Below are positions 6,217-30,053 of a stretch of DNA of 44,060 bases, piece by piece (the stretch's first letter is position 1; every line of letters begins with the position of its first letter). The stretch lies in the IMG/VR virus record IMGVR_UViG_3300010354_000168, positions 1-44,060 of that record. One strand, 5' to 3'. The position numbers and the translations under genes are program-made. The notes below the pieces were generated by a model. It was not told the origin of the DNA. It ran no database searches and saw only the letters and a program-made list of their open reading frames with translations. Source of the DNA: a virus.

Positions 6217-9200
6217 ATGACAGAAAAAAGAATTCAAATTAAAGATATTGTAAAGAGCCAAATTCCTCAATATGTTAAAGAGGATTTTCCTCTTGTTCAG
6301 GAGTTTTTAACTCAATATTATCTTGCACAAGAATTTCAAGGTGCTCCCGCTGATCTATTGCAAAATATTGATCAATATGTAAAACTTGATAATATGACGA
6401 ATTTAAAATCGTCTACATTATTAGGATCTAATATATCTGCGGTAGATACAAATATTTCAATAAGTCTTCTAGACTCAGAAACAGGTACTGAGGGATTTCC
6501 TGATAAGTATGGACTAATCTCAATTGATAATGAATTAATTGTTTATGAGTACAAGACTTCTACTGGATTCAATAATTGTTACAGAGGATTCAGCGGAGTT
6601 GTAGCATATAAAAACACTAACATTGGTATTGGATCAACATTTAAGTTAAAATCCTCCGATCAATTAGTTTTTAAAGAGTCTAATGCAGACTCACACTTAG
6701 AAGGTGCAGAAATATTCAATTTAAGTGATCTTTTCTTAAAGGAATTTTTAATCAAAACAAAGTATCAAATATCTCCAGGGTTTGAAAATAGATCTTTCAC
6801 AGAAAAGGTAAATGAAGCTACCCTATTAAAGCAAATAAAGGATTTTTATAGAAGTAAAGGAACTGATAGATCTTTTGAAATTTTATTTAAAGCATTGTAT
6901 GGTGATGAAGTAAAAATCATAAGACCAAGAGATTTTCTTTTCAGACCATCTGATGCACAATATAAAATCACAAATGATTTAGTTGTTGAATTAATTTCTG
7001 GACCAATTGAAGATATACCAAATCTTACATTATTCCAAAATGAATATCAAGATATTTCAAAATCATACGGAACAGTATCTGAAATTGAAAGTATTATTGC
7101 AGATGATGGAAGATCTTTTTATAAATTAAAAATTGATGGTGGATATAATGGAGATCCAGCTTTTGATGGAGCAATTTATGGTAGATTCTCAGTACACCCA
7201 AAAACAAGATCTATTGGAATTTTTGAGGAAGGATCAACTGCAATTGATGTAGATTCCACAGTTGGTTTTCCAAATCAGGGAGAACTATTTGTAGAATTTG
7301 CAAATCAAACTACAGGAATTGTTTCATATAGATCAAAGACCTTGAATCAATTTTTGGAATGTAGTAATATTAGTTACCAAATATCCAATAACTCCAGAAT
7401 AGGAATCAACACATACGCATCAGCAGTTACTGGATTTGGAACAGAAATCAGGGTTAGAATTAATTCTATCTTAAGTGACGTTTCAATTGATGCTGATAAT
7501 TATTTTTATAGTAAAGATGATACTGCAACTATACCAACACTTGGATATCAAGGAAAAACTTCCGCAGATAACGATTGGATTTTTAATACTGCAGCAACTT
7601 ATGATGTTGAATCATATGAGATTATCGATTCTTCAGACAAAACTTATAGTTTAACATTAAAAAATAGACACTCATTCCAAATAGGAGATAAATTAGATAT
7701 AATAGAACTTGGGAATGTTATTGCATCTTCAATTGTTTTGGATGTTTTATCCGAAAAAACAATATCAATAAGTCAGCAGGGTGTTTTAATTGGAAATGGA
7801 TTCAAGGTTAGAAGAAAAATTTTAAAAGTAGATTCATTAAAGTTTTCGGATGCCAATATTTTAGCAGCGAATGTACAAAATGTTTATAGAGATGGGAATA
7901 AGATTTTAGTTGCTTCTCCATCATTACCAAATTATGTAAATCAAAAATTAAATGCAAATAACCGATCATTAAAGTTCTCAGGAGTATTTGCAGCAAATAA
8001 TGATACATTTGCAATTACAAAATTAGAAGATCATGGTTTTTACACTGGTGATGCAGTTTATTATACACCAGAAAAAGTAACATCAACTTCAATTGACGTT
8101 GATGGAAATGAATTAACGTCCACAGTAATATCCTCATCCCTATTTGATGAGGGAATTTATTTTATAAAGAGAGTTGATGCAAATAATGTAAAGTTTGCAA
8201 AAAGCAAATCGGATATTTTAAATAATAAATTTTTATCATTAATTGGTGAAACTACAATTAATGATAATATTTTAGAACCTTATGATTTTGTTGGTAAAAC
8301 ATTAGAATCTCAAAAACTTTTAAGAGAGATTTCTCCACCAGTTTTATCAAATTCACATAAAAAAACATTACCAGGATTCACTGGAATTTTAGTTAATGGT
8401 GTAGAAATATTAAATTATAAGAGTAAAGATAAAATTTTCTATGGACCCATAGAAGAAATTGAAGTTTTATCTGAAGGATCTAATTATGACATCATTAATC
8501 CACCACAACTATCAATATCTGATTCTACTGGAGTTGGTGCTACTGGATATTGCTCTGTTTTTGGATCTCTTTCAGAAATCAGAGTTCTTGATCCAGGATT
8601 TGATTACATAAATGTTCCAACAGTTAAAATAACTGGAGGAAACGGAGTTGGTGCCCAAGCAAGGGCAAATATGAAGTTAATAACTCACGAAGTTTCATTC
8701 AATTCAGAATTTAAGTCAGCAAAAGTTGGAGTTGGTAGTACAGTATCAACTATTGGTTTTTCAACATCACACAAGTTTAGAAATGGTGAAGAAGTAATTT
8801 ATAGAACATTTGGGCAAAAGTCTATTTCCGGTTTATCAACCAATTCAAAATATTACGTTTCATCCATTTCACCAACAGTAGTAAAATTACATAGATCATT
8901 CAATGATGCAATAAGTGGCATAAACACCATAGTTCTTGGTGATTATGGAATTGGAAATCATGCATTTGAATGTACAAACAAAAAATCAGTTTTGGCATCA
9001 ATAGTAATTGAAAACTCTGGATTTGGATATCAAAATAAAAAGAGATCAGTTTCTTCTTCTGGAATTAATACGACGACAGATTCATTTTATATTAAAAACC
9101 ATGATTTTTCTTCCGGAGAAATTATAACTTATTCAACAACAGGTGTTTCAGTTGGTGGGCTCACAAATAATTCAAATTATTTTGTGACAAAAATTGATAA

Positions 9201-12200
9201 TGATAATTTTAGAATTTCTGAAGTTGGTAGTGGAAATGTTTCTGAAGATTTTTACTACAGAACAAAACAATTTGTAGATATTACATCAACTAATGATAGT
9301 TTACATACATTCAATTATCCACAGATAAGTGTAGAATTAATAGGAAATCTTGGAGTTTCTTCAGAATACAAAGCACAGGTACAACCAGTGTTTAGGGGTT
9401 CTATACGCTCAGTGCATCTCTCTTCTGGTGGATCTTCATACGGTGTTGAAGATATTTTTAATATTGATAGGCAACCAAATATCACTATTTTGAATGGATC
9501 TGGGTCTGAAATCCAACCAGTAATTTCTAACGGTAAAATAGTTCAGGTTTTAGTAAATAATACAGGAAAAAATTATACTTCCCTGCCAAATTTAGTAGTA
9601 TCTGGTCTTGGTAATGGAGCTATTTTAACTCCAGTCATATCAAATAATAAACTTACTGAAGTTAAAGTTATTGATGGTGGTAGTGGATATTCTCAAAATT
9701 CTACAAGTATTAGTGCTGTAGATCCTGGTTTAGGTGCAGCATTTAGAGCAAAAATAAAATCTTGGACTGTTAATCTTTACCAAAAGTATATTAATAAAAT
9801 TACAGAGGATGATGGATTCCTGACTTTAGGCACTGGAAAAGATTTTGGATTACAATATGCCCACATTTATGCCCCAAGAAAGCTAAGGGAATTACTTTTT
9901 TCTAGAGATCAATCTGGAAAAATATTATATTCGAATTCTGATTTAAGAATTTCCAACTCAGCAGAAATCAACTCTAAAGATCACTCACCAATAATTGGAT
10001 GGGCATATGATGGCAATCCAATTTATGGTCCATATGGTTATTCTTCAAAATCTGGAGGGGTTGTTTCCCAGATGAAGAGTGGTTATAGACTAGAAGTAAA
10101 TCCATCTAGACCCTCTTTAAATCACTTCCCAGAAGGATTTTTTATTGAAGATTATGTTTTCTATAAATCTAATGACGAGACTGTTCTTGATGAGAAAAAT
10201 GGAAGATTTTGTGTAACACCAGATTATCCAAATGGAACATATGCATATTTTGCAACAATTGATGATTCAAGTGTAGAATCGTCTGGTCCATTCTCTGGAT
10301 ATAAAAAACCAATATTCCCATATTTAATTGGTGATGCATACAAGGCAATTCCTAATGAATTTAATTTCAATAGATTCTCTAATCAAGATATAATCAATTT
10401 AAATAAAACAAATTGGATTAGGAATACTTATCCATATAATATTATAGAGAATGAGTCAACTTATGACTACATTACAATTCCAAACAAACTAAATCAAACA
10501 ATAGATGTTGTTGGTGTATCTCCAGGATCAATTGACAGTGTTGGTATTTTAACTGGAGGAAATAATTATAAAGTAAATGATCGTATAGTATTCAATAATA
10601 TTGATTCAAATCAAAATATTAGAGGTTACTCTGCTTCAGCAATAGTATCAAAAGTTTCTGGAAAAACAATTTCTAACATAAGTGTTTCTAGTAGTACATT
10701 GAATAATGTAGAATTCTACCCAATTGGTAATAAAGGCGAATATGTACTGTACACAGATTCTCCACATGGATTCACCAATTTTGATTTAGTTTCTATAACA
10801 GGATTGAGCACAACTTCTTCTTTAATAGAAGGAAATTACATTGCAGGAATAGAAACAAGTAAATTATCTCTTTCTGGGATTGGAACAACGACTATAGGAA
10901 TTGGTACTGTAGGTGCGACTGGAATAGTTACTTTTATTTCAGTAAAAGGTTCTTTAGGATTTTTAAATATAAGAGAGAATGATATTTTTGGATTAAACGG
11001 AGAGAAGATTAAAGTATTAAATATTGACAATGTATCATCAAGATTAAGAATTTTAAGACAAATTGATGGTACTATTGGTGCTTCTCACAGTGTAACATCC
11101 GTCTTATATGAAGATCCAAGAAAATTGAAAATAAATTCTGGATTTAAAACGGATTATTCATATACAATCAATAAGGAAATCTATTTTAATCCAGTTGAAT
11201 CTGTTGCTATTGGAACAAATTCATCAATTGGCATTGGATCAACAGTTAGATTTTCAAATCCAGGAGCTGGACTAACAGAAGTTTTTATTGGAAATAGTTT
11301 GATTTATCTACCAAACCATAATTTAAACACAGGAGATTTGTTAACATACAAAACAAATGGAGGAACTCCAATATCTGTTTGGTCTGTTGGTGTTGGCACA
11401 ACATCACTATTCACAAATACGAATGTATATGTTGCAAGATTTGATAAAGACTTTATTGGAATTTCGACGGTAAAAGTTGGATTGGGAACAACTGGATTCT
11501 TTGCGGGAATTGGAACAACAACCAGCAATATTAGACCACTATTCTTTACTGGATTTGGAACAGGAGTTTATCACAGTTTTACAACCAACTACTCAGTGAT
11601 AACTGGAAAAGTTTCAAAAAATGTTGTAACCGTTTCTACTGCAGAAACTCATGGTCTTTCCAATGGCGATTATGTAGAAATTGATGTAAATCCAGAATTA
11701 ACTACATCTATAATTGTCAAATATGATGATCATAATAGAAAACTGGTAATAAATCCAAAATCATTCTCATCCCCCAATGTGAATATTGATACAAATTCAA
11801 TTATAATAAATGATCACAACTTTAAAAGTGGTGATAAGGTAATTCATACTTCATCACTACCATCTGGTGGTCTTTTAAATGAAGAAATTTATTATATAAT
11901 CTTTGTAGACAAGAACACTATTAGACTTTCCGATAGTTATTACAATTCAACAAAAATAAATCCATATGCAATTGATATTACGAGTGCTTCTTCTGGATTT
12001 TTATCGTTGGTAAATCCACCATTAAAGCTTTATAAAAATTCATTAATTGAATTTGATTTATCAGATCCATCGCTATCATATAATTATCAATCAACTAGAT
12101 ACCCCGCATTTAGATTTGAGATCTATAAAGATAGTAATTTTTTAAATGTTTTTGATAGTTCACAAGTTAGTAGAATATTTAATGTACATAGAGATGGAAC

Positions 12201-15200
12201 AGTTGGCATTTCAAGTGATGCAAAAGTTAGATTCATTGTAAATGAATATCTTCCAAAAGTTTTATATTATAACTTAGTTCCAGTATACGATAGTGTTTTA
12301 CCACAAGAAAAGAAAGAAATATCATCAGATAACTCTGTAATTTCATACAATGAAATTCAGATAGAACAAAGTATATACAATGGACTCCACGAAATAACAA
12401 CCCCATCATCAACTACATTTAGATATTTTCTTGAAAAGGAACCAGAAGCAGTTTCATATGCATCATCAACTTCAATTTTGAAATATTATACAAATTCATT
12501 AACTGCTTTTGGACCAATTAAAGATATAAAAATATTGAATAAGGGGGTAAATTATTATTCATTACCTTCAATTTCCACAGTATCTTCTCTCAATGGAAGT
12601 AATGCTGTTCTTGAAGTAAAAAGCAATTCTATTGGAAAAATTAAAAAAACAAGAATAATTGATGTTGGATTTGATTATCCATCAGATTATACTTTAAAAC
12701 CAAAAATTTCTTTACCAAAAATAATTAAAATTGATGGTTTAGCATCCATAGAATCAATAGGTATAACTTCATTTGGTAGAGGTTATATTTCTCCACCAAA
12801 ACTTTTAGTTTTTGACGGAAAAACTAAAAAGTTAGTCCCAGAAGTTGATTTGAAATATACTTTAGGGAAGCAAAACGTAGAAATTAAAAATAATACTTAT
12901 GGAATTTATAATACTCCCCCAACAATACTACCAGTTGAAAATTCAAATGGAGTTGGAATAAAAACCATATCTTACAATAGTTCCTCTAAAAAAGTAACTG
13001 TTGGATTATCAACAGGGTTTAGTATTCCAGGATCTTTCCCATTCCAAGTTAATGATAGGGTTCTAATTGAAAATATAAGCGTTGGAATTAATTCCTCCGG
13101 AAAAGGATACAACTCTGAGAATTATGATTATCAATTGTTTACATTAACTGAAGTTGATGAAAATATTGGTGGTATTGGTTCTGTTACTTACAGTTTGGAT
13201 GGATATTTACTCGAATCTGAATTCCCAGGATCTTTTGATCCATCAAATTCTGCTGGTAGAATAATACCAGAAAAATTCTTCCCAGTATTTTCAACTGTAT
13301 TATCAACAAATGATTATAAAATTGGAGAAATTGTAAAGTCTGGCAATTCTGAGGGTGTTGTTGAAAATTGGGATTCATTCACAAACTATCTTAAGGTATC
13401 AACAAAAGACAGTTTCTTTGTTGATGATAGAATAGAAGGTCTCTCATCAAAAACTCAAGGAATCGCTTCATCAGTTACAGAATTTGATTCTTATGCAGTT
13501 CTTGATTCAACATCAAGATTTAAAACTGGGTGGAAAACTGATGTTGGATTTTTAAATGGAGATCAACAGAGAATGCAAGATAGTTTTTACTATCAAAATT
13601 TCTCATATGCTATAAAATCAAAGATACCTTTTGACACATGGAATGATGCGGTAAGTACATTAAATCATACTGTAGGATTTAAAAAATTCTCAGATTTGCA
13701 AATAGAATCCAAAATATCGGAAGAATCCAATACTTCATTAACCGTTGGTGTTTCAACTGAAAATACAAGTGTTGAAACCATAGTCGATATGGTTGGATAT
13801 GGAGATATAAATTGTGTTTCTGATTTTGATGTTGCAAAAGAAAATTCTTTAAAAATTAATTCAAGAGTATTTTCAAATCAAATATCCTTTGAGAATAGAA
13901 TTCTCACAGATTACTTTGAATCTTTTGGTAACAGAGTGTTATCAATTGACGATTTTAGCTCAGAATTTAATAGTAATCCACGTCCAACAAATTATAGTGA
14001 TGTTCATAGATTTGATTTACGTTCTATAAGAGCTCAAAAATATCTCACTTTTATAAAGGACAGGAGATATACTGGGCAAAGGCAGGCAATGCTTGTTACA
14101 TTGCTTCATGACGACGCAGTTGGTTATTTAAATCAATATGGGAGAGTGGAAACCACATATGACTTGGGTTCTTTTGATTTTGCAATAGATGGATCTGAAG
14201 GAATTTTACAATATTATCCAACAAGGTTTACTATTAATGACTATGATGTTGCAACAATATCATATAATATAAAAGATGATATGGCAGGTATTGGTAGCAC
14301 ATCTATCAGTTCTGCAGTTACTATTGATACATCTAATGTAACTACAGTTGGTATTGCAACTACAACGATTGTGAGTTTTGCTAAAACGAGTTTTACTTCA
14401 TCAAAGATTTTTATAGAAATTGCAAGTGATAGTGAGTATGAAATAGATGAAATAAGTATTGTTCATGATGGAACAAATATTGAAATGATTGAATATGGGC
14501 AGTTAACATCTTCACCATCACTTTTATCATCAAGCGGATTTGGAACATATTATCCATATATTTCTGGATCAAATGTAAAAATAGACTTTATTCCAAATTC
14601 AAGTGTAGGGTCTGCAACAACTATTAATACCATAAAAGTTTCTCTTGCTGGAACTTCGATAACTGGTATCGGTACTCTCGATATTAAACATGCACGCTTA
14701 GAAGCAAGAACACTAAACATCCCATCTTCAGCATCGCCAGGAATTACTACAGTTTTAAGTTATTCTGGTGAATATAGTGCAGCATATTGTTTGGTACAAG
14801 TATCAGATCTGACAAATAATAGACATCAGTTCTCTGAAGTTGTATTAATCAATGATGATACTGTTGAAGATGCATATATCACTGAATTTGCAAACATTGA
14901 AACTTATGCTGGACTTGGAACTATTGGTGGATCAGTTACTGGATTGGGTCAAACCACACAGTTAATTTTTAAACCATTACCAAATATTCAGACCCAAGTA
15001 AAAGTTTATGCAAATATTTTGAGAATTCAAGATGACACTAAAGATGTAGTTGATTTAAATAATGGAACAATAGAAACAAACAATGGTGTTTATTACGGAA
15101 CAGAAAGAGATTTAAGAAGATCATTTGATCTAAAGCATAAAACTTATCCAATTTTTGAAAGATATTTTGCTGGATTCAGTTCTTCTGTAATTAATGTTGA

Positions 15201-18200
15201 TGAAAATACTATTGAACTTCCAAGTCATTTCTTTGTGACTGGAGAAAAAGTAACATATAATTACGCAGGTGCAGGAACAACGCAAGCTATTGGAATTGCA
15301 ACTACAACTATAACTGGATTGGGATCTACAGATAAACTTCCAACTGAACTTTATATTGTAAAAATAACTGAAAATAAGGTAAAAGTTGCTGCATCAGCAA
15401 CTGATGCACTAAAATCAATTCCAAATATTTTAGATTTATCTTCTGTTGGGATTGGAACTTCACATAGATTTACTGCACACAATCAGAATGCTAAAGTAAT
15501 AGTTGCTTTAGATAATATCATACAATCACCAGTTGTTGCAACATCTCAAACAACTACTTTGTCTAAAAATGTATTTACTACAGATGATATACTATTCTTC
15601 AGTGGAATAACATCATTCTTTGGTGGAGATTTAATACGTCTCGGCAATGAGATCATGAAAATTGATTCTGTTGGTGTTGGTAGCACAAATGCAATACGGG
15701 TAAGAAGACCATGGCTTGGTACAGTTGTTGCCGGATATGCAACTGGAGATCTTGTAACAAAAGTTACTGGAACTTATAATATTATTGGAAGTAATATTAA
15801 CTTTGTAGAGGCTCCATATGGAAATGTACCTTTATCATCAACAACAAACAGACCAGATGAAAGAGATTGGACCGGCATAGCAACAGGATCTCACTTCCAA
15901 GGAAGATCTTTCATGAGATCTGGAATAACTAATAGCTCAAACGAATCTTATTACAAAAATTATATTTTTGATAATGTATCAAATTCATTTAATGGGTTAA
16001 ATAGAACATTTACACTTAAAAATTCTGGTTCAAATGTTTCAGGAATTTCAAACGAACATGCAGTCATTTTAATAAATGACGTATTCCAAGGACCAGGAAT
16101 AAGTGCAGATTATACACTGATCGAATCTTCCGGAATAACATCTGTTAGATTTGCAGGGACTGCATCATCAGTTTCGTATGACGTGAATAGTTCCAATCTT
16201 CCAATAGGGGGAATAATACTCTCGGTTGGTTCTACAGAGGGATTTGGATATCAACCACTTGTTGCGGCTGGAGGAACTGCTATAGTTTCTGGACTAGGAA
16301 CTATTTCATCAGTAAGCATTGCAAATAGTGGATCTGGATATAGAGTTGGAGTACAGACGGTAAGGGTTGGTGTACAAACTTCAGATAATAATGGATTCTA
16401 CCTCAAGTTCATTGGAACTGCAGTTGTAAGTAATGGAAATATTGTGAGCATTGGTATTACTAATCCTGGCGTTGGATATACTTCATCAAATCCACCAAAA
16501 GTCGTTATTGATACTCCACTATCATACTCGGATATACCTTTAGTTTATAGTTCTTCATCATCTGGGTTTGGAACTGCAGCAACTGTGGATATTGTTGTTG
16601 GTCAAGGATCTAGTGTTATTAGTTTTGAAATTAAAAATACTGGTTATGGATATAAAGAAGGTGAAGTTCTAACAGTTCCAATTGGTGGAAGAACTGGAAT
16701 TCCAACTGAATCATCATTTAAAGAGTTTCAACTGACAATACAAAACATTTTTGCAGATAAATTTACTGGATGGTCAATTGGAGAACTTCAATTGATGGAT
16801 GATATATCAGACTTGTTTGATGGGGAAACTAGAGCGTTCCCACTAAAAGTTTCTGGAAATCTAGTATCAATTAAGGCATCTAAAGGATCAAACATTAATG
16901 TTCAAGATTTATTACTAGTGTTCGTTAATGATGTACTACAAGTTCCAGGAGAAGGGTATATTTTTAATGGTGGTAGTATAATTACATTTACTGAGGCACC
17001 AAAAGGAAATAGTTTAGGAATTCCTGGAACAAATGATAAATGTAAGATTATCTTCTACAAAGGAAGTGGATCTGTCGATGTTGTTGAAAAAGATGTTCTT
17101 GAAACTGTCAAAGTTGGTGATAAATTAACTTTTGGGTATGATTCTTCAACTGGACAACCATCTTCTTTACAGGAAGAGGAAAGAACGGTTACATCAATAG
17201 TAGCAACTGATTTGGTTAATACCAATCCATACTTTGGACCAGGAAACACTGAAGATGAATCTATTGCTAGAACCATAACTTGGTGTCGTCAAACTGAAGA
17301 CAAAATAATTGATGAAAAAGAGATATCTAAAGATAGAATGCTATACGAACCTGCTATAAATCCTGTCGCATATTTGACAAAAACTGTTGGTATCGGATCT
17401 ACTATTGTTTATGTCGATAATCTCAGACCATTCTTCAACCAAATCAATGAAAGCAGCACTAGTTTAACCTTCCAAAAAGAGATCACATTTATCTCCCAAG
17501 ATACTAAGACATCAGCAGCAGCAACTGCAATAGTTTCTACCGCAGGAACAATAACCTCAGTGGTTGTTAGTGATGGTGGTTTTGGATATTCTGTTGCCCC
17601 AACAGTAATATTTGAAAATCCAGTTGGTTTGGGAACAACTTACAGAGCTTCTGGTATTGCTACTATTTCTTCGGCAGGAATAGTAACATCAATCTCCATT
17701 GTTGGAATGGGAACTGGATATTCTCAAGAAAATCCTCCAATAGTCTTTATTGAACCACCAAAATCTGTGTCAGAAACAAATACTGTTTCTCAATATAAAG
17801 GAGACTTTGGTTTTATAGTTGGAATTTCGACAACTTCTGATGGAGTTGCAGTAACAGGTATTGTTTTTAACCTTGCTATTGAAAAAAATTCTTTCCTAAG
17901 AAATGCCTCAATAACTGGAGTAACAACCATCAGTGGAATAACAACCGGAGATTATTTTGCAGTGTTTAACACAAATGTTGGGCATGGTGTTACTTCATTA
18001 AATGAAAGCGGTCAAATCATAGGTATTGGATCAACTTGTTTGGATAACATCTACAGAGTTGCTGCAGTTTCCATAGCACAAACAGGTGCTCCTGGACTTG
18101 GTATCACCTATGTTGCTAGAGTTACTGTTAGTGTTTCTGGTTACAATAGTTTAACTGGACTCGGATATAGTTCATTCTTCGGTAACTATAGTTGGGGAAG

Positions 18201-18330
18201 AATTGATCTCGATTCAAGATCTGCTGAAAATTCTTTCAATGCATACACCAGATCGGCATATATAGGAATATCAACAGGAACGCTGGTCAGAAGATCGAAG
18301 TCTCTGAAGTATTTTAATTATATTCCATAA
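6217..18330 (+). CDS. Giant baseplate/tail structural protein (4037 aa)
   Basis: One uninterrupted frame of 4037 residues fills the place of gene 7 between genes 6 and 8. The N-terminus (VKSQIPQYVKEDFPLVQEFL, then FYRSKGTDRSFEILFKALYG at about 210-230) is the conserved start of the large cyanophage structural protein found here. Residues about 1180-1350 carry a YHYH-like domain: GWAYDGNPIYGPYGY at 1261-1275 and NGTYAYF at 1339-1345, where YHYH has become YAYF. The rest is mostly beta and Gly/Ser/Thr/Asn-rich, with two recurring units: an H-x-F...G-D-x-V-x-Y...YYV...D-x-N-x-F unit and a G-x-G-Y...P-x-V-x-I unit. Its TAA stop is part of the late promoter of gene 8. Virion role is secure from context; equating it with T4 gp7 is inference. 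It may form a large peripheral part of the baseplate or bind host surface sugars. Confidence 0.85.
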   Translation: MTEKRIQIKDIVKSQIPQYVKEDFPLVQEFLTQYYLAQEFQGAPADLLQNIDQYVKLDNMTNLKSSTLLGSNISAVDTNISISLLDSETGTEGFPDKYGLISIDNELIVYEYKTSTGFNNCYRGFSGVVAYKNTNIGIGSTFKLKSSDQLVFKESNADSHLEGAEIFNLSDLFLKEFLIKTKYQISPGFENRSFTEKVNEATLLKQIKDFYRSKGTDRSFEILFKALYGDEVKIIRPRDFLFRPSDAQYKITNDLVVELISGPIEDIPNLTLFQNEYQDISKSYGTVSEIESIIADDGRSFYKLKIDGGYNGDPAFDGAIYGRFSVHPKTRSIGIFEEGSTAIDVDSTVGFPNQGELFVEFANQTTGIVSYRSKTLNQFLECSNISYQISNNSRIGINTYASAVTGFGTEIRVRINSILSDVSIDADNYFYSKDDTATIPTLGYQGKTSADNDWIFNTAATYDVESYEIIDSSDKTYSLTLKNRHSFQIGDKLDIIELGNVIASSIVLDVLSEKTISISQQGVLIGNGFKVRRKILKVDSLKFSDANILAANVQNVYRDGNKILVASPSLPNYVNQKLNANNRSLKFSGVFAANNDTFAITKLEDHGFYTGDAVYYTPEKVTSTSIDVDGNELTSTVISSSLFDEGIYFIKRVDANNVKFAKSKSDILNNKFLSLIGETTINDNILEPYDFVGKTLESQKLLREISPPVLSNSHKKTLPGFTGILVNGVEILNYKSKDKIFYGPIEEIEVLSEGSNYDIINPPQLSISDSTGVGATGYCSVFGSLSEIRVLDPGFDYINVPTVKITGGNGVGAQARANMKLITHEVSFNSEFKSAKVGVGSTVSTIGFSTSHKFRNGEEVIYRTFGQKSISGLSTNSKYYVSSISPTVVKLHRSFNDAISGINTIVLGDYGIGNHAFECTNKKSVLASIVIENSGFGYQNKKRSVSSSGINTTTDSFYIKNHDFSSGEIITYSTTGVSVGGLTNNSNYFVTKIDNDNFRISEVGSGNVSEDFYYRTKQFVDITSTNDSLHTFNYPQISVELIGNLGVSSEYKAQVQPVFRGSIRSVHLSSGGSSYGVEDIFNIDRQPNITILNGSGSEIQPVISNGKIVQVLVNNTGKNYTSLPNLVVSGLGNGAILTPVISNNKLTEVKVIDGGSGYSQNSTSISAVDPGLGAAFRAKIKSWTVNLYQKYINKITEDDGFLTLGTGKDFGLQYAHIYAPRKLRELLFSRDQSGKILYSNSDLRISNSAEINSKDHSPIIGWAYDGNPIYGPYGYSSKSGGVVSQMKSGYRLEVNPSRPSLNHFPEGFFIEDYVFYKSNDETVLDEKNGRFCVTPDYPNGTYAYFATIDDSSVESSGPFSGYKKPIFPYLIGDAYKAIPNEFNFNRFSNQDIINLNKTNWIRNTYPYNIIENESTYDYITIPNKLNQTIDVVGVSPGSIDSVGILTGGNNYKVNDRIVFNNIDSNQNIRGYSASAIVSKVSGKTISNISVSSSTLNNVEFYPIGNKGEYVLYTDSPHGFTNFDLVSITGLSTTSSLIEGNYIAGIETSKLSLSGIGTTTIGIGTVGATGIVTFISVKGSLGFLNIRENDIFGLNGEKIKVLNIDNVSSRLRILRQIDGTIGASHSVTSVLYEDPRKLKINSGFKTDYSYTINKEIYFNPVESVAIGTNSSIGIGSTVRFSNPGAGLTEVFIGNSLIYLPNHNLNTGDLLTYKTNGGTPISVWSVGVGTTSLFTNTNVYVARFDKDFIGISTVKVGLGTTGFFAGIGTTTSNIRPLFFTGFGTGVYHSFTTNYSVITGKVSKNVVTVSTAETHGLSNGDYVEIDVNPELTTSIIVKYDDHNRKLVINPKSFSSPNVNIDTNSIIINDHNFKSGDKVIHTSSLPSGGLLNEEIYYIIFVDKNTIRLSDSYYNSTKINPYAIDITSASSGFLSLVNPPLKLYKNSLIEFDLSDPSLSYNYQSTRYPAFRFEIYKDSNFLNVFDSSQVSRIFNVHRDGTVGISSDAKVRFIVNEYLPKVLYYNLVPVYDSVLPQEKKEISSDNSVISYNEIQIEQSIYNGLHEITTPSSTTFRYFLEKEPEAVSYASSTSILKYYTNSLTAFGPIKDIKILNKGVNYYSLPSISTVSSLNGSNAVLEVKSNSIGKIKKTRIIDVGFDYPSDYTLKPKISLPKIIKIDGLASIESIGITSFGRGYISPPKLLVFDGKTKKLVPEVDLKYTLGKQNVEIKNNTYGIYNTPPTILPVENSNGVGIKTISYNSSSKKVTVGLSTGFSIPGSFPFQVNDRVLIENISVGINSSGKGYNSENYDYQLFTLTEVDENIGGIGSVTYSLDGYLLESEFPGSFDPSNSAGRIIPEKFFPVFSTVLSTNDYKIGEIVKSGNSEGVVENWDSFTNYLKVSTKDSFFVDDRIEGLSSKTQGIASSVTEFDSYAVLDSTSRFKTGWKTDVGFLNGDQQRMQDSFYYQNFSYAIKSKIPFDTWNDAVSTLNHTVGFKKFSDLQIESKISEESNTSLTVGVSTENTSVETIVDMVGYGDINCVSDFDVAKENSLKINSRVFSNQISFENRILTDYFESFGNRVLSIDDFSSEFNSNPRPTNYSDVHRFDLRSIRAQKYLTFIKDRRYTGQRQAMLVTLLHDDAVGYLNQYGRVETTYDLGSFDFAIDGSEGILQYYPTRFTINDYDVATISYNIKDDMAGIGSTSISSAVTIDTSNVTTVGIATTTIVSFAKTSFTSSKIFIEIASDSEYEIDEISIVHDGTNIEMIEYGQLTSSPSLLSSSGFGTYYPYISGSNVKIDFIPNSSVGSATTINTIKVSLAGTSITGIGTLDIKHARLEARTLNIPSSASPGITTVLSYSGEYSAAYCLVQVSDLTNNRHQFSEVVLINDDTVEDAYITEFANIETYAGLGTIGGSVTGLGQTTQLIFKPLPNIQTQVKVYANILRIQDDTKDVVDLNNGTIETNNGVYYGTERDLRRSFDLKHKTYPIFERYFAGFSSSVINVDENTIELPSHFFVTGEKVTYNYAGAGTTQAIGIATTTITGLGSTDKLPTELYIVKITENKVKVAASATDALKSIPNILDLSSVGIGTSHRFTAHNQNAKVIVALDNIIQSPVVATSQTTTLSKNVFTTDDILFFSGITSFFGGDLIRLGNEIMKIDSVGVGSTNAIRVRRPWLGTVVAGYATGDLVTKVTGTYNIIGSNINFVEAPYGNVPLSSTTNRPDERDWTGIATGSHFQGRSFMRSGITNSSNESYYKNYIFDNVSNSFNGLNRTFTLKNSGSNVSGISNEHAVILINDVFQGPGISADYTLIESSGITSVRFAGTASSVSYDVNSSNLPIGGIILSVGSTEGFGYQPLVAAGGTAIVSGLGTISSVSIANSGSGYRVGVQTVRVGVQTSDNNGFYLKFIGTAVVSNGNIVSIGITNPGVGYTSSNPPKVVIDTPLSYSDIPLVYSSSSSGFGTAATVDIVVGQGSSVISFEIKNTGYGYKEGEVLTVPIGGRTGIPTESSFKEFQLTIQNIFADKFTGWSIGELQLMDDISDLFDGETRAFPLKVSGNLVSIKASKGSNINVQDLLLVFVNDVLQVPGEGYIFNGGSIITFTEAPKGNSLGIPGTNDKCKIIFYKGSGSVDVVEKDVLETVKVGDKLTFGYDSSTGQPSSLQEEERTVTSIVATDLVNTNPYFGPGNTEDESIARTITWCRQTEDKIIDEKEISKDRMLYEPAINPVAYLTKTVGIGSTIVYVDNLRPFFNQINESSTSLTFQKEITFISQDTKTSAAATAIVSTAGTITSVVVSDGGFGYSVAPTVIFENPVGLGTTYRASGIATISSAGIVTSISIVGMGTGYSQENPPIVFIEPPKSVSETNTVSQYKGDFGFIVGISTTSDGVAVTGIVFNLAIEKNSFLRNASITGVTTISGITTGDYFAVFNTNVGHGVTSLNESGQIIGIGSTCLDNIYRVAAVSIAQTGAPGLGITYVARVTVSVSGYNSLTGLGYSSFFGNYSWGRIDLDSRSAENSFNAYTRSAYIGISTGTLVRRSKSLKYFNYIP

Positions 18331-18349: not shown

Positions 18350-19897
18350 ATGTCCGCAATTATAACTGATCAGATTAGAATATTAAACGCAAAAAATTTT
18401 GTTGCTGGTGTAACCAATGCAGCAAATTCTTACTATTCTTTTATTGGCCTACCAAATCCCACAGATTATCAAACAAATTGGGATGAAAGTCCGCCACCAC
18501 CAAAAGATAGTTTTGATGATGAAAATAATTATTGGGATACTATGATTGCTCTGCAGAAAATTAATTCTTCAGATGTTAGACAGGTTGTGCCAAAAAGAGT
18601 TTGGACATCTGGAACAACTTATGATATGTATCGCCATGATTATAGTAGATCAAATGTAGCCAAAGTTTCGGGATCAACTAATTTATATTCTTCGTTCTAT
18701 TTTGTAATGAACAGTGAGTATAGAGTTTATATCTGTCTACAAAATGGAACAAATCCAGAAACTCCAAATGGAAAACCATCACTAGATGAACCTCTTTTCA
18801 CTGATTTAGAACCAAGGGTAGCAGGATCAAGTGGAGATGGATATATTTGGAAATACTTATATACTATTAAACCGACAGATGTTGTAAAATTTGAATCTAC
18901 AGAATTTATTCCAGTGCCTCAGGATTGGGAAACTTCGTCCGATAATTCTGCGGTAAGAAGCAATGCAGTAGATGGATCTATAAAAATAGTAACTATAAAA
19001 AATAGGGGAGTTGGTATAGGAACTGCAAATACTACATATACTCGCGTTCCAATCAGAGGAGATGGAACTGGAGCAGAATGTACAATTGTTGTTAACGGTG
19101 ATCAAGAAGTAGAAACTGTGGTGGTTTCAAGTCAAGGTTCTGGATATACTTACGCAAATGTTGATTTGGTTGGTGGAAATGTGCCAACTGGAACAACAAG
19201 ACCAACTTTTGATGTTATTATTCCACCAAAGGGTGGTCATGGTAGAGACATTTATAGAGAACTTGGTGCATATAATGTCTTATTATACTCTAGAATTGAA
19301 AACAATAACGAAAATCCAGATTTTATTACAGGAAATCAGGTAGCAAGAGTTGGAATTATAGAAAATCCAGAAGTTTCTTCAGGCACAGTATTAACTTCAT
19401 CTCAAGCAAGTGCAGTTAACGCACTTCGCTTAACGGGAACTGGTTATAGTACGGCATCTTTTACTTCAGATGCATATATTACACAAACCGTGTCTACTGG
19501 GACAACTGCTGTTGGTAGAGTAATCAGCTATAATCAAATAACAGGGGTTCTAAAGTATTGGCAAGACAGATCTCTATCTGGATTTAGTACGGTTGGTATT
19601 GCACAATCTACACCAGCATATGGATTTGATTTGACCGAGTTTACTTCATCACCAGGAAGTGGTGGTAATTTAACAATATTGGGCGGAACAGTCAATCTTT
19701 CAATTGATACTGCATTTACTGGTATATCAACAGTAATAAATAATAGAACATACTACCTTGGACAGTCATTTACCAATGGTCTTTCTGTTCCAGAAGTAAA
19801 AAGACACTCGGGAAATATTATTTACGTTGACAATAGACCCGCAATTACAAGGTCATCAAACCAAAAAGAAGATATTAAAGTCATTTTGCAGTTCTAA
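18350..19897 (+). CDS. 8: Baseplate wedge protein gp8
   Basis: Probable homologue of T4 gp8, a wedge protein. The beginning (MSAIITDQIRILNAKNFVAG, then YYSFIGLPNP and WDTMIALQKINSSDVRQVVPKRVW) and the segment SSGDGYIWKYLYTIKPTDVVKF (about 161-180) are typical of the gp8 family in T4-like phages. At 515 residues it is much longer than T4 gp8 (334). The extra length includes a stretch at about 205-300 with the G-x-G-Y repeat (VVVSSQGSGYTYANVDLVGG) also seen in the giant ORF and gp14. The C-terminal piece NIIYVDNRPAITRSSNQKEDIKVILQF is the expected family ending. It follows its own late-promoter match and is 6 bases from the next gene. Confidence 0.9.
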   Translation: MSAIITDQIRILNAKNFVAGVTNAANSYYSFIGLPNPTDYQTNWDESPPPPKDSFDDENNYWDTMIALQKINSSDVRQVVPKRVWTSGTTYDMYRHDYSRSNVAKVSGSTNLYSSFYFVMNSEYRVYICLQNGTNPETPNGKPSLDEPLFTDLEPRVAGSSGDGYIWKYLYTIKPTDVVKFESTEFIPVPQDWETSSDNSAVRSNAVDGSIKIVTIKNRGVGIGTANTTYTRVPIRGDGTGAECTIVVNGDQEVETVVVSSQGSGYTYANVDLVGGNVPTGTTRPTFDVIIPPKGGHGRDIYRELGAYNVLLYSRIENNNENPDFITGNQVARVGIIENPEVSSGTVLTSSQASAVNALRLTGTGYSTASFTSDAYITQTVSTGTTAVGRVISYNQITGVLKYWQDRSLSGFSTVGIAQSTPAYGFDLTEFTSSPGSGGNLTILGGTVNLSIDTAFTGISTVINNRTYYLGQSFTNGLSVPEVKRHSGNIIYVDNRPAITRSSNQKEDIKVILQF

Positions 19898-23095: not shown

Positions 23096-26000
23096 CTAAC
23101 AAAAGATGGGAAATTGCAAGTTAAATATGGAACTCCTGCAGAAAATCCAGAAAAACCAGTTTCTGTTGATGATGCATTAGAAATTGGAATAGTATCATTA
23201 CCACCATATCTTTATTCGCCATCACAAGCTTCTATAGAATTTTTAGAGCATAAAAGATATAGAATGGTTGATATTAAACAACTTGAGAACAGAATTAAAA
23301 ATTTAGAGTATTACACAACATTATCTCTTTTAGAAACAAATACAGCAAACCTATTTGTTCCCGATTCTGATGGATTGAATAGATTTAAGTCCGGATTTTT
23401 TGTTGATAACTTCTCATCATTTTTACCACAAGAATCTAGATTAGATGTAAAAAATAGTGTAGACCTTCAAACTAAAGAACTGAGACCAAGACATTATACA
23501 ACTGCAATTGATTTGATAGAAGGTCCAGTTGTTGGTTTAGATCCAACAACAGATCTTGCATTTGAACCTGTAGAAGGAATTAATGTTAGAAAAAATAATG
23601 ATATCTTAACACTCGATTATTCTGAAGTTGAATGGTTAAAGCAATCTTTTGCAACTAGATCGGAAAGTGTGACACCATTTCTAATTAGTTTCTGGCAGGG
23701 AACAGTAGAGTTAACACCAGCATCAGATACTTGGATTGATACAACAAGACTTGAAGCAAAGATTATCAATACTGAAGGAAACTACGCAGAAACACTTGCA
23801 AATGCAGCAAGAACTTTAAATGTTGATCCACAAACTGGATTTGCTCCAACTATTTGGAACGCTTGGGTTACTAATTGGACTGGTCAATCTGTTGTTAATA
23901 CTACAGCAATTAGAAGAACAACTAATGAGTCCTCCACATCATGGTGGGGGAGAGCGTTATGGGGAACAGTCACAGATTCAACGATTGAAGATACATTCAG
24001 AGAAGTTAGAGATACTGGAGTTCAAACAAGAAATGGTGTTAGAACTGTAGTTACTGAGCAGTTTGATAGAACTTCAGTTGGAGACAGAGTTGTTCGTAGA
24101 GATCTTGTTCCATACATGAGATCTAGAAACGTACAATTTGTATCTAAAAAAGTAAAACCTCTAACACAACTATATGCATTTTTTGATGGAGTTAATGTAA
24201 CAAAGTATTGTGTTCCGAAGTTACTAGAAATTTCAATGCTATCTGGTTCTTTCCAAGTTGGAGAGACCGTAGTTGGATATGTACAACAAACTGGATTGGG
24301 ACAAGGAACTGAAAACGTTTCTGCTAAAATAACATTTAGAGTTGCACAAACAAATCATAAAGAAGGTCCATATAATGCTCCATCTTCGGTATACACCCAA
24401 AATCCATATAATTCACAGTCTTTATCTGCATCATATTCATCAACATCAACGATATTAAATGTCGACACATTTTCATTATCAAATGCAACTCAAGGTGAGT
24501 ATAGTGGATGGGTAGAATCTGGTATGTTGCTTGTTGGTAGAACCAGTCAAGCACAGGCATCAATTACAAATGTACGTTTGATATCCGATTTGTCTGCAAC
24601 TTTAATAGGTAGTTTTTATATCCCAAATCCAAATTTAAATATTCATCCTAGATTTGAAGCTGGAACTAAAGTATTCACTTTAGTTAATGACACCGCAAAT
24701 AACCAGGATGTTGCATCAACAATTGCTGAAGAGTCTTTCACTTCAAGTGGAACTTTAGAAACTGTACAAGAAAATATTATTTCTGTTAGAAATGCTAGAG
24801 TTGAAAATAAGCAAGTATTTGAAGAAAGAGCAGTTTCCAGAACAACCGGAAGTCAACTGGTCAGTAGTAGAGTTATTGCACAAACTCAAAGACAAGGTAT
24901 TGTCGGTTGGTATGATCCATTAGCACAATCATTCTTAGTCGACAACGAAACTGGTGTATTTTTAACAAGTTGTGATGTGTTTTTTAGAACAAAAGATGAT
25001 ACCGATATACCAGTAACTTTCCAATTAAGAACCATGCAAGGTGGTTTCCCAACACAAAACGTGATACCTTTATCAGAAATTGTTTTGGAACCATCCGAAA
25101 TTAATACTTCTGGGGATGGAAGTGTTGCAACAAATATTCAATTTAAAGCACCAATTTACTTAGAAGGTGGTAAAGAGTATTGTATCTGTTTAGCATCTAA
25201 TTCAACTAAGTATAGTGTTTATATTTCCAGAATAGGTGAAAACGATATAATTAGTCAAACATTTATTTCCAATCAACCATACTTAGGTTCATTGTTCAAG
25301 TCACAAAATGCATCTACTTGGGAAGCAAGTCAATGGGAAGATTTGAAATTTACCCTATACAGAGCTGATTTTATTGATAGTGGATCTGTCGAATTTTACA
25401 ACCCAAACCTAACAGAAGGAAATGGTCAAGTTGCTAAACTATTACCAAATTCTTTAGGATTTAATTCTAAGAGGGTAAGAGTAAGTCTTGCATCGACTAT
25501 AAACGATCCTAATTTAAAACTTGGTTATACAATTACTCAAGTTGGAACAGGTGCTACAGGAAATTATGTTGGTAGTGCAGGAATTGCTACTGGCAATTTA
25601 ACTATTACCAATCCAGGAATTGGATATACTCCATCATCAGGTCAATTAGTATACAATAACGTGATTCTCTCGAGAATCACTGGAAATGGATCTGGAGCTT
25701 TAGCAAATGTAACCATTAATAATGGAGTTGCTATTGCAGCAACAATTGTCAGTGGAGGAAATGGATATAAAACTGGCGATGTTGTAGGAATAACAACGTT
25801 GGGATCAGTATCTGTTGGTAGAGATGTTAAATTTACAATAGTTTCTATTGCAAATACAAATCAACTTATAATTGATAATGTTCAAGGAGATTTTGCAGTT
25901 GGATCTGCAAATACTATTAGATATGTAACTAGTTCTGGAATAACAACTCTCACATCTACTATTGGTGCTGGTGTTACTATTGGTGTTACTCTCAGTGAGG

Positions 26001-27355
26001 TTATCACAGAAAGCGATGGTTTACATATTAAAGTAAATCATAAAAATCACGGAATGTATGCAGACAATAATTTTGTTGTACTTTCTGATGTGGAATCTGA
26101 TATTAAACCAACAAAATTATCAGTTGCATATGCATCAGATTCTATAGGTCCAATTTCCGTTGATGATGCTAGTGAGTTTTCAATTTTTGAGGGAGTTGGA
26201 GTTGGAACTACAAATCCAGGATATTTGAAGATTGGTAATGAAATTATTGAATATACTTCAGTTTCGGGTAATGTAATTGGTGGTGACATTATAAGAGGAT
26301 CAAATCCAGTTTCATATCCTTTAGGTTCTCAAGTTTACAAATATGAAAGTAATGGAGTTTCTCTAAGAAGAATCAATAAAACCCACAATCTTAATGATGC
26401 AGATATTGATAATGTAGTAGGTTTTGATCATTATCACATAAAACTGGATATGTCTACTGATGGAATAGATAGATCTTCTGGAACTGGATACAAAAAACTA
26501 TATCAAAATCAAACAAAGTCCAGTGGCGGTTATTCTATCAAGGCATCTCAAAATATTCCGTTTGAAATTATTACACCAATAATTCAAAATGTTACTGTTC
26601 AGGGTACTGCACTTAGTGCAGAAGTTAGAACAGTTACTGGAACAAGTATTAGTGGAACAGAAATTCCATTTACAGATGCCGGATTTGAAACTATCTCAAT
26701 AAACAATCCAAATTATCTACCATCACCAAGATTAATTTGTTCTGAAGTAAATGAAATTGCAAATCTTACAAATGTTCCAGAAAATAAATCTTTAAATATG
26801 AGATTAAGACTGGAAACAACAAATTCTTACTTATCTCCTGTTGTTGATATTCAAAGGGTAAGCACTATTTTAACAACAAATAGAGTTAACAGTGTGATTA
26901 CAGATTATGCAACAGATGGTAGAGTAAATTCAATCCTGGAGGATCCAACGGCATTCCAATATATTTCTAAAGAAATTTCTTTAGAAACTCCAGCAACTTC
27001 TATTAAAATTATTCTAAATGCATACGTAAATTCTTACTGCGATCTAAGAGGTTTCTATTCAATTAGCGAAAATCCAGGTTTTGATCCAATATTCACACCA
27101 TTCCCTGGATATGACAATCTAGATACAAAATCTCAAATAATTTCTTTTGAAGATAGTAATGGAAAATCAGATTCTTATGTAACACCATCTTCGGCATTAG
27201 AATTTAATTCTGAACTACTTGATTTTAAAGAATATACATTTACTGCGGACAACTTACCATCATTCAGAAATTATAGAATTAAACTTGTTGCAACATCAAC
27301 AAATCAAGTCTATGTTCCAAGAATTAAAGATTTGAGAGTTATTGCTCTGGCATGA
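23096..27355 (+). CDS. DUF4815-type virion protein, C-terminal part after in-frame TAA
   Basis: The continuation of the preceding gene in the same frame, 1419 codons from the base after the TAA to the stop at 27353-27355. If translated alone it must start at a non-ATG codon such as TTG 23114 (weak GATGGG before it) or at ATG 23264 (MVDIKQLENRIKN); neither has a good ribosome site. The beginning contains a likely coiled coil (FLEHKRYRMVDIKQLENRIK) followed by TNLFVP-like and FKSGFFVDNFSSFLP segments conserved in this family. Further on are a WYDPLAQSFLVDNETGVFLTS segment (typical of phage receptor-side or baseplate proteins), a pair of G-x-G-Y repeats at about 25600-25800, and a C-terminal beta domain ending VYVPRIKDLRVIALA. 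The reading is intact over 4.2 kb, so the break at 23093 is recent or functional. Confidence 0.75.
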   Translation, partial: LTKDGKLQVKYGTPAENPEKPVSVDDALEIGIVSLPPYLYSPSQASIEFLEHKRYRMVDIKQLENRIKNLEYYTTLSLLETNTANLFVPDSDGLNRFKSGFFVDNFSSFLPQESRLDVKNSVDLQTKELRPRHYTTAIDLIEGPVVGLDPTTDLAFEPVEGINVRKNNDILTLDYSEVEWLKQSFATRSESVTPFLISFWQGTVELTPASDTWIDTTRLEAKIINTEGNYAETLANAARTLNVDPQTGFAPTIWNAWVTNWTGQSVVNTTAIRRTTNESSTSWWGRALWGTVTDSTIEDTFREVRDTGVQTRNGVRTVVTEQFDRTSVGDRVVRRDLVPYMRSRNVQFVSKKVKPLTQLYAFFDGVNVTKYCVPKLLEISMLSGSFQVGETVVGYVQQTGLGQGTENVSAKITFRVAQTNHKEGPYNAPSSVYTQNPYNSQSLSASYSSTSTILNVDTFSLSNATQGEYSGWVESGMLLVGRTSQAQASITNVRLISDLSATLIGSFYIPNPNLNIHPRFEAGTKVFTLVNDTANNQDVASTIAEESFTSSGTLETVQENIISVRNARVENKQVFEERAVSRTTGSQLVSSRVIAQTQRQGIVGWYDPLAQSFLVDNETGVFLTSCDVFFRTKDDTDIPVTFQLRTMQGGFPTQNVIPLSEIVLEPSEINTSGDGSVATNIQFKAPIYLEGGKEYCICLASNSTKYSVYISRIGENDIISQTFISNQPYLGSLFKSQNASTWEASQWEDLKFTLYRADFIDSGSVEFYNPNLTEGNGQVAKLLPNSLGFNSKRVRVSLASTINDPNLKLGYTITQVGTGATGNYVGSAGIATGNLTITNPGIGYTPSSGQLVYNNVILSRITGNGSGALANVTINNGVAIAATIVSGGNGYKTGDVVGITTLGSVSVGRDVKFTIVSIANTNQLIIDNVQGDFAVGSANTIRYVTSSGITTLTSTIGAGVTIGVTLSEVITESDGLHIKVNHKNHGMYADNNFVVLSDVESDIKPTKLSVAYASDSIGPISVDDASEFSIFEGVGVGTTNPGYLKIGNEIIEYTSVSGNVIGGDIIRGSNPVSYPLGSQVYKYESNGVSLRRINKTHNLNDADIDNVVGFDHYHIKLDMSTDGIDRSSGTGYKKLYQNQTKSSGGYSIKASQNIPFEIITPIIQNVTVQGTALSAEVRTVTGTSISGTEIPFTDAGFETISINNPNYLPSPRLICSEVNEIANLTNVPENKSLNMRLRLETTNSYLSPVVDIQRVSTILTTNRVNSVITDYATDGRVNSILEDPTAFQYISKEISLETPATSIKIILNAYVNSYCDLRGFYSISENPGFDPIFTPFPGYDNLDTKSQIISFEDSNGKSDSYVTPSSALEFNSELLDFKEYTFTADNLPSFRNYRIKLVATSTNQVYVPRIKDLRVIALA

Positions 27356-27356
27356 T

Positions 27357-27747: not shown

Positions 27748-27750
27748 ATA
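27743..27750 (+). promoter_or_regulatory. Late-promoter-like site (CCTAAATA), gene 13
   Basis: CCTAAATA keeps the TAAATA core of the T4 late promoter but differs at two of the first positions. It uses the stop codon TAA of the 58-residue gene and lies 18 bases before the ATG of gene 13. Weaker than the other sites. Confidence 0.35.
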
Positions 27751-27768
27751 TTTTGAGAGGAAACAAAA

Positions 27769-28617: not shown

Positions 28618-28622
28618 TTCAA

Positions 28623-30053
28623 ATGTTAAATCCATTTTTTCAACAAGGATCATCAACAGAACAAAGTCTCATACAAGACTTAATCAACGAACAGTTGAGA
28701 ATGTATGGAGTTGAAGTGCATTATTTACCAAGAAAGTATATAACGGAAAAAAGTGTTATAAGAGAAGTCATTGAATCAAAATTTGATGATGCTTATCCAA
28801 TAGAAGCATATGTTCAAAATTATGAAGGATATGCGGATAATACTACCATACTTTCAAAATTTGGAATTCAAGCAACAAATGAGATTTCATTAATTATTTC
28901 AAGAGAACGTTTTGATCTTTATATTGCACCACTAATAAAGGATAAACCAAATATAAAATTATCATCTAGACCAAAAGAAGGTGATTTAATTTATTTTCCA
29001 CTCGGAGATAGATTATTTGAAGTAAAATTTGTTGAACATGAAAAACCTTTTTATCAACTCCAAAAAAATTACGTGTATGAATCAAGATGTGAACTATTTC
29101 GTTACGAAGATGAAATTATTAATACTAGTATTGATGAAATTGATGATACTTTAAGTCAATTAAGTTCTGCAGACGGTGAAGAAATTTTTATTGGAAGAAC
29201 ACAAACATTAACACTGGTTGGAGTTGGATCTACAGCAACTGCTACAGCATCTATAGTAAATGGTGGTATAAGACAAATATTTGTAACTAACAGAGGAGGT
29301 GGATATACTAGCACTCCAACAGTTGCAATATCCTCTGCACCAGCTGGAGGTGTAACTGGAATTGCAACAGCAATAATGATAGGAGGAGTTGTTGCATGTA
29401 ATGATAACGTTAACCCATCAGCAAAATCAGTTCAAGCAGTTCAAATTATCAATGCAGGTGCTGGATATACTGTAGTACCAGGAATTCGCTTCATTGGTGG
29501 GGGAGGAAGTGGAGCTGCTGCAACTGCATCTATAGGAAGTGGAATTATTGGGTTAATAAATCTAAGTTATAATGGATCTGGATATTCATCACCACCAAAT
29601 ATTACTTTTACAAATCAAATTTTCCAAAGCGGTGTTACTACAGTAGCAGCTGCTGCAACCGCAATTGTAAGTGCTGCAGGATCAATAACAGCAATTCGCA
29701 TCACAAATGCTGGACTTGGTTACAGTGTAGCACCAACAATAGTAATATCATCTCCATATAGTAGTGGAATTGGAACATTCCAATTCAATGAAACAATCGT
29801 TGGAAGCACTAGTGGTGTAACTGCTAAGGTAAGAAAATGGAATGCCCCAACAAATCAATTAGAAGTTTCAAATATTGACGGAGCATTTATTCCCGGAGAA
29901 ACAGTTGTTGGTACAGCATCAAGTGCATCTTATCAAATTAGATTTGTTGATACAAATATAAATGAAGATGGTTATACGGATAATGTGGAAATTGAAACTG
30001 AAGCAGATAGTATTTTAGATTTCAGTGAGTTCAATCCTTTCGGAAATCCCTAA
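28623..30053 (+). CDS. 14: Neck protein gp14, with extended C-terminal region
   Basis: Homologue of T4 gp14, partner of gp13 in the neck. The N-terminal 180 residues (LIQDLINEQLRMYGVEVHYL, PRKYITEKSVIREVIESKFDDAYPIEAYV, FEVKFVEHEKPFYQLQKNYV) are typical. The protein has 476 residues against 256 in T4. The extra part is an Ala/Gly/Thr-rich insert at about residues 195-385 with four G-x-G-Y repeats (RGGGYTSTPTVAIS, GAGYTVVPGIRFIG, GSGYSSPPNITFTN, GLGYSVAPTIVISS). After it come a short FNETIVGSTSGVTAKVRKWN repeat and the normal gp14 ending (SILDFSEFNPFGNP). The same repeat occurs in the giant baseplate ORF and gp8. The insert may be a surface decoration of the neck, a place where other phages carry whiskers; that is inference. 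Confidence 0.93.
   Translation: MLNPFFQQGSSTEQSLIQDLINEQLRMYGVEVHYLPRKYITEKSVIREVIESKFDDAYPIEAYVQNYEGYADNTTILSKFGIQATNEISLIISRERFDLYIAPLIKDKPNIKLSSRPKEGDLIYFPLGDRLFEVKFVEHEKPFYQLQKNYVYESRCELFRYEDEIINTSIDEIDDTLSQLSSADGEEIFIGRTQTLTLVGVGSTATATASIVNGGIRQIFVTNRGGGYTSTPTVAISSAPAGGVTGIATAIMIGGVVACNDNVNPSAKSVQAVQIINAGAGYTVVPGIRFIGGGGSGAAATASIGSGIIGLINLSYNGSGYSSPPNITFTNQIFQSGVTTVAAAATAIVSAAGSITAIRITNAGLGYSVAPTIVISSPYSSGIGTFQFNETIVGSTSGVTAKVRKWNAPTNQLEVSNIDGAFIPGETVVGTASSASYQIRFVDTNINEDGYTDNVEIETEADSILDFSEFNPFGNP

Follow-up and report, generated by a model that had tools for sequence, protein, structure and literature searches.

Paired GxGY repeats in neck and baseplate proteins of a T4-like cyanophage: a candidate family of Ig-like inserted domains

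Introduction

The neck ring of bacteriophage T4 is made up of six gp14 subunits. Residues 178-256 of T4 gp14 are disordered before tail joining and are docked on gp15 in the virion (PMC12270204). Other phages carry small, variably present beta-sandwiches on tail or capsid proteins, such as the C-terminal Big_2 domain of lambda gpV, T5 pb6 and the FN3 domain of SPP1 (PMC8718954). Ig-like domains of this sort project from tails and have been proposed to bind surface carbohydrates weakly; removal of the lambda domain lowered activity 100-fold, and removal had no effect in other systems (PMC8718954). Another Ig-like domain is found in Dpo31, the tailspike of the marine phage Carin-1 (PDB 28lx, 28mg and 8ck1). 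Its published description presents D3* (Dpo31 residues 434-536) as an inserted, protruding domain that is soluble and monomeric by itself and that weakly resembles sugar-binding Ig domains (DALI Z 2.9); the accessible text neither describes D3* as two repeats nor links it to other proteins (PMC13317679).

Here, we analyzed a 44-kb IMG/VR virus fragment (IMGVR_UViG_3300010354_000168; its 44,060 nucleotides are referred to below as the window). A preliminary description, based on the letters of the window, had noted a short Gly-x-Gly-Tyr (GxGY) repeat in four virion genes and had regarded it as a module copied between baseplate and neck genes. In the open-licence literature, we found no description of this repeat or of an Ig-like domain in the cyanophage neck, although an earlier account may exist elsewhere.

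Results

GxGY units are present in four virion genes

The window derives from a T4-like cyanophage of the ocean. Among named phages, the best matches to its full-length gp14 were in Synechococcus phages, with S-SM2 first, and comparison to S-SM2 and P-SSM2 assigned gp6, gp7, gp8, VrlC/DUF4815, gp13, gp14, gp15 and gp16. The N-terminal core of gp14 is an ordinary member of the head-closure Hc2 families phrog_460 and phrog_679 (PF11649; 9mkb, 9lu4). The T4-type gp14, which has no GxGY pairs, is 256 residues long as compared to 476 residues here. The repeat copies and the features next to them are as follows:

6217..18330, plus strand: giant ORF of 4037 residues, gp7-like by PHROGs, called 'baseplate wedge initiator' after the S-SM2 annotation
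8419..8661, plus strand: gp7 pair, GSNY and GFDY (profile 24 and 29 bits)
8998..9726, plus strand: gp7 units GFGY, GSSY, GKNY and GSGY (unit profile); by eye, another domain intervenes before the third strand of the first unit, GFGY
10516..10599, plus strand: gp7 unit GNNY (profile 27 bits)
12499..12816, plus strand: gp7 units GVNY, GFDY and GRGY (unit profile); by eye, a degenerate fourth unit, YGIY, lies just downstream
16219..16686, plus strand: gp7 units GFGY, GSGY, GVGY and GYGY (motif and unit profile; clade analysis)
17500..17781, plus strand: gp7 C-terminal pair, GFGY and GTGY, closest to gp14 pair B (profile 42 and 38 bits; AlphaFold2 strands)
18947..19204, plus strand: gp8 pair, with a degenerate first half, GVGI, that has lost the tyrosine, and a second half GSGY (unit profile)
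25526..25828, plus strand: VrlC/DUF4815 pair, GIGY and GNGY (motif; BLASTP to gp7, 4.7e-5; weak by unit profile)
28623..29156, plus strand: T4-like neck core of gp14, residues 1-178 (PF11649; T4 gp14 structures 9mkb and 9lu4 over residues 2-171)
29205..29501, plus strand: gp14 pair A, units 1 and 2, residues about 195-293 (profile 47 and 44 bits; AlphaFold2 strands, pLDDT about 90)
29502..29774, plus strand: gp14 pair B, units 3 and 4, residues about 294-384 (profile 47 and 50 bits; AlphaFold2 strands, pLDDT about 90)
29778..29912, plus strand: small C-terminal beta module of gp14, residues 386-430; the corresponding region of S-RIM2-type gp14 holds an inserted pair

The motif GxGY occurred 12 times in the giant ORF, 4 times in gp14 and 3 times in gp8, as compared to 1.5, 0.19 and 0.22 occurrences expected from within-protein shuffles, and these counts were reached in 0/1000 shuffles of each protein. 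In the second half of VrlC, 3 occurrences were observed against 0.29 expected, a number reached by 3 of 1000 shuffles. The motif count was zero in gp15, gp6, gp17 and the first half of VrlC. All four repeat-bearing genes thus exceeded the level of shuffled sequence. With a unit profile seeded with the four gp14 copies only, the giant ORF yielded 12 copies and gp8 yielded 2; the scores of real copies went up to 50 bits, against 5.8 for the best of 200 block-shuffled sets. The VrlC copies were the weakest by this profile (E 0.26), but BLASTP tied the VrlC stretch to gp7 of the giant ORF (4.7e-5). BLASTP also aligned the C-terminal gp7 pair with gp14, at 45% identity over 88 columns (E 2.4e-11). 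Independently, PHROGs matched the giant ORF to the gp14 family phrog_460 (1.7e-27), and gp14 to the giant-ORF family.

These results confirm that the motif lies in gp7, gp8, VrlC/DUF4815 and gp14 where the preliminary description had placed it, and the profile, BLASTP and PHROG matches bear out its view that one homologous module is common to the four proteins. The copies that it listed were real but did not make up the full set, as further ones lie at 9019, 10558, 16240 and 16642. Its proposal that the repeats supply much of the extra length over the T4 proteins held for gp14, where they provide about 180 of the 220 residues in excess; the gp8 pair, about 85 residues long, supplies roughly half, if T4 gp8 has 334 residues, as we assume. 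The units are rich in Gly, Thr and Ala, as would be seen if they were chance or low-complexity sequence of no common origin. However, shuffles failed to reproduce the repeat and significant profile, BLAST and PHROG matches were obtained across genes, which leaves this explanation a negligible probability; the shuffle tests rule out an origin by composition.

Other features of these genes were also seen. The giant ORF includes a YHYH domain (PF14240, 7e-25) at about 9967-10266 of the window, a domain proposed to be a tail-associated metal-dependent hydrolase (PMC7824862). By eye, it also holds another repeat module, H-x-F-x-x-G-e-x-V-x-Y ... Y-x-V, for example near residues 875, 960 and 1900, one copy of which lies inside the GxGY unit at gp7 residue 935. 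The gp14 module at 29778-29912 is shared with VrlC at 22502-22627 (F-x-x-x-E-x-I-x-G-x-x-S-G-x-T-A-x-V-x-x-W ... G-x-F-x-x-G-E), and fragments of it occur elsewhere. VrlC/DUF4815 is present as two ORFs in the same frame (19904-23095 and 23114-27355), with an in-frame TAA at 23093-23095. Because S-SM2 and a nearly identical virus contig each have the gene as one intact ORF, this stop reflects either a nonsense change or an error in the assembly of the record.

The working unit of the repeat is the pair

The preliminary description had treated the unit as a single short repeat, and had missed its pairing, its spread outside cyanophages and a solved example. The working unit of the GxGY repeat is the pair. 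Within the window, two units about 35-50 residues apart, each following a strand-turn-strand, were found in gp14 (two pairs), at the C-terminal site of gp7, in VrlC and in gp8, where the first is degenerate. In cellular genomes, 48 arrays had an even number of units and 7 an odd number (p 6.5e-9; 55 arrays from 45 protein clusters), when undetected units were filled in from the spacing. Arrays of three or more units were even in 15 cases and odd in 3, and by eye all seven odd arrays had one further degenerate unit in the flank.

Gp14 lineages gain or lose GxGY units in pairs. Four units were present at 80 gp14 loci and two at 69, and none of the loci had one or three. Units were absent from gp14 of an enterobacterial T4-like phage, phiN3, S-CAM1 and Syn2. 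Two were found in ACG-2014b, S-H9-2 and S-RIM2, and four in P-SSM2, B23, S-B43, S-SKS1, S-SM2 and the window, as well as by eye in S-CAM7. Sf-FS3 had six by eye, and S-8S53 had eight (seven by profile and one by eye). Comparison of the empty site in Syn2 gp14 with the filled site in S-RIM2 and ACG-2014b revealed a difference of one pair of approximately 80 residues, the remainder being 67-71% identical (67% for S-RIM2). Host domains that occur both with and without an inserted pair were thus seen in gp14 (Syn2 vs S-RIM2), and likewise in PF16460, PF07980 and PF11863 proteins.

Two of the gp14 genes had additional features. That of Sf-FS3 (595-2886) encodes a 763-residue neck protein with a LamG/ConA-like lectin domain (PF13385, 2.9e-7) between GxGY units. 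The gp14 gene of DSL-LC02 is spread over two frames, with only its second part included in the deposited CDS, probably owing to a frameshift in the record.

Predicted fold and a solved relative

An AlphaFold2 model of gp14, with 59 gp14 relatives as input, had a pLDDT of about 90 in the repeat region. In this model, each unit of about 40 residues comprises a strand, a tight turn, a strand, the GxGY turn and a short strand. In a separate model of the C-terminal segment of gp7 (pLDDT about 80), this strand triplet recurred at the same positions. Unrelated folds in the different proteins, which the preliminary description had named as the outcome that would speak against it, were thus not borne out for gp14 and gp7. 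The gp14 model matched models of cyanophage baseplate initiators and other virion proteins in BFVD. In Foldseek searches of the PDB, no match with an E value below 0.001 was obtained with the gp14 or the gp7 model, and the Dpo31 chain was absent among the 50 matches listed in each search. The gp14 result may have been affected by its N-terminal core, which was poorly modelled (pLDDT below 50).

A profile built from 37 pairs (A6) found one convincing protein in the PDB, the tailspike Dpo31, at residues 440-506 (domain E 2.8e-5), a match that falls inside D3* (434-536) and was weaker with profile A4 (E 0.0063). Matches of A6 to BurrH (4cja, 4cj9) were rejected as summed insignificant pieces, of which the best had an E value of 31-35. 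D3* resembles the pairs of the window in that it comprises two GxGY units and is an insert within a protein of a marine phage; as published, it protrudes and has an Ig-like fold. Dpo31 differs in that it is the trimeric depolymerase spike of a podophage, whereas the proteins studied here belong to the neck and baseplate of a T4-like phage. The Ig-like assignment of GxGY pairs rests on Dpo31, and the presence of two units in the single domain of D3* agrees with the independently found even-number rule. On the strength of the pairing rule and the D3* match, GxGY pairs are probably Ig-like decoration domains, each formed from two half-domains.

The four gp14 copies are contiguous in the window and, by this locus alone, would also be compatible with a continuous stack of units. 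A beta-solenoid built of 40-residue coils, in place of paired Ig-like domains, could similarly explain why up to about 14-16 units occur head to tail in an array, at a spacing near 38-46 residues. However, a solenoid is expected to have a repeat number free of any pairing rule, and the numbers observed follow a strong even-number rule. Together with the Ig-like fold of D3*, this makes a solenoid very unlikely.

GxGY pairs also differ from the phage Ig-like domains described previously. None of the pairs or arrays scanned matched a Pfam or NCBIfam model; Big_1, Big_2, FN3, I-set and the other Pfam Ig models were among those without a sequence match. In addition, the GxGY pair has an internal two-fold repetition and usually lies within a loop, not at the C-terminus.

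Units are inherited with their genes

The same module occurs in four neighboring genes, which would fit a mobile element that is actively copied among the virion genes of one phage and varies its surface. In addition, the unit at 17578 in gp7 scores slightly higher against unit 4 of the window gp14 than against the S-SM2 gp7 copy (117 vs 108). Against this idea, nucleotide identity among the copies in the window, a comparison that the preliminary description had called for, was at most 60%. The nearest neighbor of a unit in another phage was always at the same gene and position (four gp14 units in 59 phages and six gp7 units in 58), and gp14 units 1-4 formed perfect clades in unit trees of 59 relatives. 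Recent copying or exchange between genes is therefore not supported, since every unit keeps its gene and position among 59 close relatives. Judged from these sequence comparisons, active copying in this lineage is largely refuted, and we regard it as even less probable than a solenoid; the modules are ancient in this lineage and travel with their genes. Of the earlier interpretation, the single module in four virion proteins thus stands and its recent exchange between genes does not. A cyanobacterial host as the source of the module is not supported either: a pair was detected in only 3/194 cyanobacterial genomes at 1e-5, which does not suggest a recent host origin.

GxGY pairs occur beyond cyanophages

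With the S-RIM2 gp14 pair as the query, 57 loci were found in bacterial and archaeal genomes, in Verrucomicrobia, Planctomycetota, Bacteroidota, Actinomycetota, Firmicutes, Proteobacteria, Methanoregula and Nostoc. The pair was present as an insert in lambda-like tail tube proteins (PF16460), a DUF3383 sheath, a Nostoc sheath and SusD/RagB proteins, and units were also found in tailspikes and multicopper oxidases. By profile, the unit is shared by the PHROG virion families phrog_2885, 701, 708, 4406 and 5342, which contain large cyanophage baseplate, fibre and virion proteins; these are whole-protein families, and the shared GxGY domain itself is not defined there.

The sheath protein of Nostoc foliaceum (2305-4407) has six GxGY units inserted ahead of its conserved C-terminal part; tube-like genes follow it, and judged by its neighbors the locus looks like a contractile injection system. 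In two Bacteroidota, SusD/RagB lipoproteins each have one pair, inserted at the same loop. In a Pseudomonas tail tube gene (2644-3756), the reading frame departs from the tube domain immediately behind the pair, unlike in a relative, possibly because of a frameshift or misassembly.

A broader reading, which we put forward tentatively and at somewhat less than even odds, is that the GxGY pair is an uncatalogued, widespread Ig-like plug-in family that moves among phage virion proteins, injection-system proteins and bacterial glycan-uptake or secreted proteins. The cyanomyovirus neck ring would then be an adhesion collar, sized in steps of one domain per subunit and sometimes equipped with a lectin domain.

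Discussion

Given the homology, pairing, insertion, beta secondary structure and inheritance with the gene observed for GxGY pairs, we propose, as the probable though by no means certain reading, that paired half-domains form Ig-like sandwiches in surface loops of the neck and baseplate. Each unit of approximately 40 residues would be a half domain, in which a beta-hairpin (A-x-A-x-V turn I-x-x-I-x-I) is followed by the G-x-G-Y turn and then by a short strand (P-x-V-x-I). Paired, two such units would form a single Ig-like beta-sandwich (about 80-100 residues), the ends of which would be close together and so fit into a surface loop. The baseplate proteins gp7, gp8 and VrlC would carry such domains, and so would gp14 of the neck, where each subunit has two of them, placed after the T4-like core and ahead of the C-terminal tail. 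Facing outward, they would most likely decorate the virion and touch the host surface through weak, non-specific contacts, for which glycans are the likeliest partner; they may also, or instead, pad neighboring subunits. From the insertion sites and the structures of T4 gp14 and Dpo31, we infer that the pairs are exposed on the virion surface. As they are located just after the T4-like core, they are expected to ring the neck outside the channel. Because the Ig-like domains of other phages project and have been proposed to be weak carbohydrate binders, accessory surface decoration is the most likely role by analogy, and surface decoration, as the preliminary description had suggested, remains the best reading of the shared module.

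The main rival is structural cement. In gp14, the pairs would connect neighboring subunits, gp15 and the sheath, and those of gp7, gp8 and VrlC would brace an enlarged baseplate; all would stabilize the virion without touching the host. The gp14 pairs do lie beside the segment that is docked onto gp15 in the T4 virion (PMC12270204), the units are conserved and fixed in position in 59 relatives, and the Ig domain of lambda gpV adds to subunit contacts (PMC8718954). On the other hand, Syn2 and S-CAM1 assemble with no units and other phages with up to eight, and the module is also found in secreted bacterial proteins outside virions. We therefore consider cement rather doubtful.

Decoration could also be more specific, each pair being a true glycan-binding module with its own carbohydrate site that helps to set host range. 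The module occurs in a depolymerase tailspike and in SusD proteins, as well as beside the LamG/ConA-like lectin domain of Sf-FS3 gp14, and D3* has a weak resemblance to sugar-binding Ig domains (PMC13317679). However, it is also found inside multicopper oxidases, the invariant Gly, Tyr and Pro positions are turn residues that offer no obvious binding site, and gp14 and baseplate-core proteins are not the usual determinants of host range. Sugar binding by GxGY pairs is plausible by analogy, but a specific site in each pair is unlikely, more so than cement.

Large proteins without annotation abound in cyanophage virions. One domain explains part of this dark matter, namely gp14 and parts of the 4000-residue gp7, gp8 and VrlC. 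No Pfam or NCBIfam model for it was found, although at least several phyla have it and it is built into sheaths, tubes, spikes, injection systems and SusD proteins. For expression and structural studies, the pairing rule defines a domain boundary that is simple and can be tested, and gp14 proteins with 0, 2, 4, 6 or 8 units form a natural experiment on the effect of neck decoration.
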